Shown here in pieces: positions 10,962 through 19,181 of a stretch of DNA of 28,510 nt (positions are counted from its first letter, which is position 1; every line of letters begins with the position of its first letter). The notes under the pieces are model-generated. The model made no database searches. It worked only from the letters and a program-made list of their open reading frames with translations, and was not told the origin of the DNA. Made by a program: the position numbers and the translations under genes. Source of the DNA: a virus; the IMG/VR virus record IMGVR_UViG_3300024346_000386, positions 1 to 28,510 of that record. One strand, given 5' to 3'.

Positions 10962-10962
10962 G

Positions 10963-11040
10963 TTGTGGTTATTTGTTGGGTCAAATGTACAGGTAGTGTT
11001 TCTATTAAAATGTTTCAAAACATACAAAAGCGAAAATAAA
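10963..11040 (-). promoter_or_regulatory. Repeated early promoter/leader module, copy A
   Basis: This ~78-bp region parallels 18722-18798. Both read (minus strand) TTTATTTTC-RCTTTTGTAWGTTT, then an AT-rich part with ATAGAAA, then a TAC[A/T]TTTG element (TACATTTG at 10989-10982, matching TAnnTTTG), then CAAATAACCACAA directly before the start codon. No TTTG at the standard -33 spacing is present, so the shared upstream CTTTTGTA may be a protein-binding or UP-like element. Confidence 0.55.
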
Positions 11041-11041
11041 T

Positions 11042-18496: not shown

Positions 18497-18709
18497 TTAA
18501 TAAACGTTAGCTAATTTTATTTTAAGCGATTCCACCATTTCATAGCAATGCTTAGACCAGGAAGGCGCAACTACTTCGTTTGCTTTTGCAGTTCTTTCGT
18601 ACCAAGCAATGTCAGCATTGATTGATTTTTTCTTTGCAGCCATTGTAACGCTGTTAAGGTATTCAAGTCTTTTTGCAGTTTGTTCGGGTGTTGGTAGGTT
18701 GAAGTTCAT
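18497..18709 (-). CDS. First gene of early operon, hypothetical (70 aa)
   Basis: The protein MNFNLPTPEQTAKRLEYLNS ... SWSKHCYEMVESLKIKLANV is a helical, basic small protein of unknown function. It has its own promoter module (copy B, 18722-18798) and the leader AAATAACCACAAAAACAAAC before ATG. This leader is the exact 11-nt complement of the terminator loop about 100 bp upstream. Confidence 0.6.
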   Translation of the reverse strand: MNFNLPTPEQTAKRLEYLNSVTMAAKKKSINADIAWYERTAKANEVVAPSWSKHCYEMVESLKIKLANVY

Positions 18710-18721
18710 CGTAGTTTGTTT

Positions 18722-18798
18722 TTGTGGTTATTTGATAGGACAAAAGTACAAAGCGTTTTCTATGTAAATAGCACGAAACTTACAAAAGTGAAAATAAA
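18722..18798 (-). promoter_or_regulatory. Repeated early promoter/leader module, copy B
   Basis: The minus strand carries TTTATTTTCACTTTTGTAAG, then TACTTTTG (18748-18741, TAnnTTTG), then CAAATAACCACAA. It parallels 10963-11040 in order and sequence. Its upstream edge overlaps the T-rich tail of the terminator at 18809-18839, so the short RNA ends where this promoter begins. Confidence 0.6.
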
Positions 18799-18839
18799 TA
18801 AAAAGAAACCCGTCAAGGATAACCACAAACCTTGACGGG
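18790..18839 (-). terminator. Intrinsic terminator with 11-nt antisense loop
   Basis: It has a 10-bp perfect stem (18839-18830 with 18818-18809), the 11-nt loop UUUGUGGUUAU, then the tail TTTCTTTTTATTTATTTTC. The U-tract is interrupted but strong. Confidence 0.75.
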
Positions 18840-18896
18840 CTAAGTAAACGACCCATGACTGGTACGCTGTTCTAATGGTAAGCGTTCGGGTACTGT
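18797..18896 (-). ncRNA. Predicted ~100-nt terminated small RNA with antisense loop
   Basis: The RNA would start a few bases after TATCTTTG (18909-18902). It contains a hairpin ACGCU/AGCGU with a 12-nt loop (18880-18859), and ends in the hairpin CCCGTCAAGG / CCTTGACGGG (18839-18809) plus a T-rich tail. The terminator loop UUUGUGGUUAU is the exact reverse complement of AUAACCACAAA, the leader of the next gene (18731-18721), and matches 10 nt of the leader at 10972-10963. This suggests a phage small RNA acting on early leaders. Expression and function are inferred. Confidence 0.55.
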
Positions 18897-18901
18897 TGGG
18901 G

Positions 18902-18966
18902 CAAAGATAGTAAACGTAAGCCTATGAACTTACTTTGTGGGCAAAAAAGTAAGCCTATACACTTAC
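18902..18966 (-). promoter_or_regulatory. Promoter with two palindromic operators
   Basis: The minus strand has TATCTTTG at 18909-18902 (TAnnTTTG); a TTTG at -33 is not seen. Two 18-bp palindromes GTAAG-N8-CTTAC lie at 18916-18933 and 18949-18966, 33 bp apart (three helical turns). The inner one covers the spacer and -33 region. This arrangement suits a dimeric repressor or activator that controls the short RNA and possibly the early operon. No matching regulator can be assigned. Confidence 0.65.
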
Positions 18967-18983
18967 TATTTAACCGCCCGAAA

Positions 18984-19181
18984 TTATCGTACGTTTGAAA
19001 ACTCGTCCCTGGAAAAGATAGGACTGCCATCTACATCCAACGGTGGGTAATGCCTTAAACACCTTCGCGCCCTTTCCTTCAATTGCTTTACGGTCTTTGG
19101 TCGGGTGCTTGTATTCAATAGGTCGAGCAGAAATTCCCGTGTAATTAGCAAGGCGTTATCCTGTTCATATCGTAGGCTCAT
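18984..19181 (-). CDS. Conserved small phage protein (65 aa)
   Basis: The protein MSLRYEQDNALLITREFLLD with LKERARRCLRHYPPLDVDGS resembles a small phage protein family of unknown function with the (R/K)ERAxRCLRHYP pattern. It is coupled to the metallophosphoesterase gene upstream (19178-19181, ATGA-type). It is the last gene before the operator region. Confidence 0.6.
   Translation of the reverse strand: MSLRYEQDNALLITREFLLDLLNTSTRPKTVKQLKERARRCLRHYPPLDVDGSPIFSRDEFSNVR

Follow-up and report, generated by a model that had tools for sequence, protein, structure and literature searches.

The stretch of DNA analysed here (the window) is a virus record of 28,510 bases, whose genes, almost all on the minus strand, include those for a portal protein, a metallophosphoesterase, a DUF3987 protein, a helicase-like protein, and a cytosine methylase. 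Promoter-like sites in the window have the Bacteroidota form TAnnTTTG, which corresponds to the reported -7 consensus (PMC7366714). A BLAST search of an isolated-phage collection with the region and with the RNA described below yielded neither a match nor a close relative, and a search for tRNA and tmRNA genes found none.

A gap of 274 bases separates the last gene of one operon (ending at 18984) from the first gene of the next (starting at 18709). Read along the minus strand, it comprises two palindromes, the element TATCTTTG, a conserved domain of 54 nt, a terminator, the element TACTTTTG, and the leader of the next gene. The palindromes (AGTAAG..CTTACT) are imperfect and lie 33 nt apart as a pair of direct and inverted repeats. 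The upstream copy (18945-18967), possibly an operator, is kept in several relatives, and the second copy (18912-18934) overlaps the promoter region of the RNA. In two relatives (L007 and L010), other inverted repeats (ATACC..GGGTAT) take its place, as if repressor or activator sites had been exchanged. The -7 element TATCTTTG (18902-18909, minus strand) is assigned to the RNA and TACTTTTG (18741-18748, minus strand) to the next gene, whose leader contains ATAACCACAAA (18721-18731, minus strand). This gene, an early gene and the first after the RNA (18497-18709, minus strand), is listed as an open reading frame of 70 amino acids and has no PHROG or Pfam match.

The Bacteroidota-type promoter (18909-18902) and the terminator predict a separate non-coding RNA of ~100 nt (minus strand, 18897-18797; RNA1), in agreement with the earlier note on this DNA. 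Its 5′ part is an antitoxin-like domain (18844-18897, minus strand). From a predicted 5′ end at about 18897, an outer stem (18891-18886 with 18858-18851) is stacked on an inner stem, ACGCU/AGCGU (18885-18881 with 18868-18864), which closes a 12-nt loop and is followed by a 5-nt bulge, ACCAG (18863-18859). In the window, the outer stem carries an extra AU bulge, and the consensus fold of this RNA taken alone (-6.9 kcal/mol) is slightly weaker than an alternative fold (-8.1 kcal/mol). The terminator (18797-18841, minus strand) consists of a stem (18841-18830 with 18818-18807), the loop UUUGUGGUUAU (18829-18819), and a U-rich tail; the hairpin previously described at 18839-18809 of the minus strand, CCCGTCAAGG-TTTGTGGTTAT-CCTTGACGGG with a T-rich tail, is present.

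Searches with the neighbouring metallophosphoesterase, followed by pattern scans, yielded 20 viral relatives that share this intergenic region, and some of these records are near-duplicates. Across these relatives, the terminator stem is paired in 100% of cells and covaries more strongly than in all 500 shuffles, and its loop is near-constant. Many of the related records contain a second RNA gene (RNA2) in tandem, with the promoter TATCTTTG right after the first terminator. RNA2 has a different 5′ domain, followed by a terminator that often bears the same loop, and several second RNAs end in another terminator type, which has an inner hairpin and lacks this loop. The 5′ domains of RNA1 and RNA2 are both structured, with compensatory changes. 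Inserted or alternative hairpins of similar look (GGATTGNGATTNNCNCAGTCGGC and ATTGGACTGGGGTGTCCCCAATCGGC) were also observed in or after the RNAs of L003, L005, L008, L009, L018, L083, and the more distant relative L022; these hairpins and the other-type terminators could be additional decoys or interchangeable terminators.

The conserved 5′ domain, which does not figure in the earlier note, marks the RNA as a homologue of AbiF-type antitoxin RNAs. Covariance models were built from phage RNA1 (model R1, 82.6 bits for the domain in the window) and from the second phage RNA (model R2). The first R1 match, in a Flavobacteriaceae genome, was located directly upstream of an Abi_2 gene. Among 299 Flavobacteriaceae genomes, R1 matched 14, and 13 of these 14 matches lie directly upstream of an Abi_2 (AbiD/AbiF) open reading frame; the adjoining gene was identified by Pfam Abi_2 (5.7e-55), PADLOC AbiD (1.9e-72), and PDB 8vz6 (1.1e-55). 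R2 gave four matches, three of them upstream of Abi_2, and in the two best the string GCACGCCTCTG-TTCAAGCGCA is almost identical to that of the phage RNA. L261, a cellular RNA, falls between the two types, so that RNA1 and RNA2 appear to belong to one superfamily. One cellular RNA1 match (L257, 1501-1554) has no Abi_2 gene nearby and is possibly another orphan, in a prophage or a remnant.

The reverse search started from Abi_2 genes, gathered according to protein family in 149 Flavobacteriaceae and 198 Bacteroidota genomes; about 32 of the 38 distinct regions upstream of them carry such an RNA, as judged by eye. Wherever the TAnnTTTG element is present, its spacing is the same in phage and cell, and the -7 element of RNA1 thus recurs with the same spacing before cellular Abi_2 RNAs. 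In addition, a plain sequence profile made from 20 cellular Abi_2-upstream RNAs, with no phage sequence included, was run on 1.5 Mb of phage DNA. It returned 31 matches, the top ones being 29 RNA1/RNA2 positions (E 5e-4 for the domain in the window) and the others an orphan RNA in G029 and a chance match; the best E on reversed DNA was 3.2. The elements most conserved in the cellular RNAs (AACAGUAC, ACGC, AGAAC-AGCGU, and the bulge ACCAG) are kept in the phage RNA. In the shared cellular fold, one stem is stacked on another, AGAAC-AGCGU is conserved in the loop and inner stem, and the bulge comprises 5 nt (NCCAG). The phage RNA agrees with this family in sequence and structure, and joint covariation of phage and cellular RNAs supports its membership. 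On these sequence comparisons, kinship between the phage RNA and AbiF-associated RNAs is near certain. The Rfam abiF family (RF03085) was not matched by the window, L244, or L245, with permissive E-values either, and Rfam at gathering and permissive thresholds returned nothing meaningful, whether for phage RNAs or for cellular ones; kinship with RF03085 therefore rests on the Abi_2 linkage.

With regard to the toxin, no Abi_2 open reading frame was found in the 28 phage records checked, the window and its relatives included. The phage RNA is therefore an orphan homologue or mimic of a cellular antitoxin RNA and not part of a complete AbiF system. Pattern scans of viral contigs yielded 112 loci with an RNA that passes the cellular profile, and none of these loci has an Abi_2 open reading frame, though 11 of them lie so close to the end of a contig that position allows no judgement. 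As a control, the Abi_2 profile found 52 of 55 cellular loci, a figure that speaks for detection only, since most of these loci had been chosen for Abi_2. The viral search pattern fixed the inner stem and the bulge and left the outer stem free. The 44 distinct outer stems among 107 parsed orphan RNAs have on average 6.75 of 7 positions paired, versus 4.81 with shuffled partners (maximum 5.25 in 1000), and because this stem was free in the pattern, its pairing indicates that the fold is under selection in viruses without the toxin. In four viral contigs (L374, L379, L339, and L487), orphan AbiF-like RNA genes directly follow TATCTTTG-type promoters. In L347, L355, L359, and L383, further, differently spelled candidates of similar look adjoin the orphan RNA, which suggests arrays made up of more than one antitoxin subtype.

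AbiF, a HEPN RNase under the control of an RNA, is regarded as the ancestor of Cas13. In Clostridioides difficile, AbiF is silenced in trans by RCd22, an RNA of ~100 nt that has a promoter and a terminator of its own and binds the protein directly; the structure of the stem and not its sequence matters (PMC12373285). The structure of a Prevotellaceae AbiF in complex with its RNA is available (8VZ6), and it was also reported that single-stranded bulge nucleotides inhibit the AbiF RNase (PMC12373285, PMC12737573). An RNA that mimics a type III antitoxin is known from phage phiTE as pseudo-ToxI (PMC3475682) and serves as a precedent.

Against this background, the minus-strand RNA at 18897-18797 is best read, with a probability of roughly 0.7, as an orphan AbiF-type antitoxin RNA, that is, a phage-borne mimic of the AbiF antitoxin. 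Given that the phage lacks a gene for AbiF, the RNA probably serves it as a decoy that disarms AbiF defence, and a phage-made antitoxin decoy appears to be the most economical reading of its function. In the cell, the RNA directly upstream of Abi_2 would keep an RNase of the PbAbiF family silent. The phage carries this RNA without the protein, beside its early genes and with its own predicted promoter and terminator. On infection, the RNA would be transcribed from the phage, bind the host AbiF protein, and hold it inactive, and abortive infection would thereby be blocked. A second RNA in tandem, of the other Abi_2-linked subtype, would widen the range of AbiF proteins neutralised. The RNA thus probably acts in trans, as had been proposed, with a protein as its presumed partner. 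As a broader proposal, somewhat better than an even bet, orphan AbiF-type RNAs would constitute a widespread class of phage counter-defence, in which some Bacteroidota phages carry small arrays of at least two subtypes with interchangeable hairpins (the conserved terminator loop included), each tuned to different AbiF-like RNases. In the literature searched, coverage of which was incomplete, no report of phage-borne AbiF RNA mimics was found.

Alternatively, the orphan RNAs might serve a phage function unrelated to host AbiF, for instance the control of a phage protein or transcription attenuation ahead of the early genes. A tRNA gene lies less than 400 nt from 45 of the 112 viral orphans, the fold is maintained without Abi_2, and premature termination is a way in which AbiF RNAs can work in cis (PMC12373285). 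However, the residues conserved in the phage RNAs are those of the toxin-linked RNAs, and two toxin-linked subtypes occur side by side, which makes such a function unlikely.

The AbiF-mimic reading gives no account of the conserved terminator loop, for which the earlier note had put forward a role of its own: a trans-acting sRNA that regulates the translation of early genes through pairing of this loop with their AACCACA-type leaders, much as the terminator loop of LhrC in Listeria is known to pair with a ribosome site (PMC4132741). The loop indeed has a perfect 11-nt complement, ATAACCACAAA, in the leader at 18731-18721, which is 87 nt downstream of the hairpin and the sole other exact 11-mer match in the window, and this places it opposite an initiation region, as in LhrC-type sRNAs. 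The loop is also near-constant despite change in the stem, in the second tandem RNA as well, and in loop-bearing phages the density of AACCACA is ~13-fold higher in leaders than genome-wide, uncorrected for leader composition. A second leader (10972-10962) had been cited as a further target; the match is there, with one mismatch over 11 nt, but it is not an independent instance, as the whole promoter-leader segment 18722-18799 recurs with 77% identity at 10963-11041 (a paralogous block of ~79 bases at 10962-11041, minus strand). The matches of 8 nt and 7 nt noted in other leaders likewise exist, in leaders that are A/C-rich, and when one mismatch is allowed, 14 of 100 shuffles equal the observed number of matches. 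Complements of the loop of at least 8 nt number 7 in the leaders of loop-bearing phages versus 1.8 expected, and 4 versus 2.4 expected in phages without the loop, so that the excess over composition is modest and not specific to loop-bearing phages.

The earlier note had named independent variation of loop and leaders among related phages as the outcome that would speak against control by pairing, and such variation is found in the 21 related records. The exact loop occurs without the exact 11-nt leader in eight of them (G003-G005, G008, G011-G013, and G017), G019 keeps the leader with its loop altered to UUUGUGGUAAU, and no compensatory leader change that matches a loop change was seen in any of the 21. 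Leaders with AACCACAA are also present in G030, a relative without these RNAs, and several second RNAs have other terminators from which this loop is absent. Control of early genes by the terminator loop is therefore not supported and must be considered quite improbable. LhrC and the phage RNA are alike in a terminator loop complementary to a translation initiation region and in the presence of several copies; they differ in that loop and leader do not covary in the phages and the conserved phage domain points to AbiF. As the stem changes compensatorily around a near-constant loop, the loop is constrained, though not demonstrably by these leaders. A search for the exact terminator pattern in genome contigs gave 72 matches, none of them a comparable long-stem terminator, and a terminator model (R3) had no match in the 299 Flavobacteriaceae genomes; nothing thus indicates that the loop is part of the cellular AbiF RNA. 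Pairing of the loop with the leader in cis, as an insulator in read-through transcripts, was also considered and rejected: the window allows such pairing, but several relatives have as their nearest terminator one of another type or one whose loop has drifted.

That the RNA is the vestige of a former phage AbiF system, now a promoter-terminator insulator between late and early operons, would suit its position between two operons of one strand and the occurrence of AbiF in prophages (PMC12373285), but is very improbable given the compensatory changes that show selection on the fold, the orphan state of the RNA in all 21 related records, and the presence of two subtypes.

The antitoxin-mimic reading can be set beside several known systems. 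RCd22-AbiF of C. difficile and AbiFr-PbAbiF (8VZ6) likewise involve a ~100-nt RNA with its own promoter and a structured antitoxin motif (and, in RCd22, a terminator), and the cellular homologues of RNA1 and RNA2 lie directly upstream of PbAbiF-related Abi_2 genes. Unlike these AbiF/AbiD systems, the phage has no Abi_2 gene and its RNA no match to RF03085, and RCd22 contains two antitoxin motifs, whereas each phage RNA has one. A DNA region of lactococcal phage sk1 reportedly protects phage 712 from AbiF (Rince et al., 2000, cited in PMC12737573); it would resemble the present case as phage DNA that counters AbiF, here a presumed function, and differ in being lactococcal. Pseudo-ToxI of phiTE (PMC3475682) is similarly encoded by a phage as a non-coding copy of a defence antitoxin, with no gene for the toxin. 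It concerns the ToxN toxin family instead of HEPN AbiF, and it is an expanded repeat, whereas the phage RNA here, with a putative function and a promoter and terminator of its own, represents a family that is divergent and has long been maintained.

If the mimic reading is correct, it would add another case of RNA mimicry against RNA-antitoxin defence, one present in many viruses and not in a laboratory escape mutant. It would also allow phage sensing by AbiF systems to be tested directly and provide natural RNA inhibitors of a Cas13-related enzyme. Profile searches of this kind can find orphan antitoxin RNAs that are missed by gene-centred annotation and current Rfam.

Two further features of the region were observed. 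A conserved hairpin, AAGTGCACCAGTTAGGTAGTGTACTGCACCACCT, is located between the RNA genes and the early promoter in L007, L010, L020, L083, and L009. In addition, the duplicated promoter-leader block of the window precedes two different early genes, and similar blocks recur in relatives, so that early promoters seem to spread as modules.
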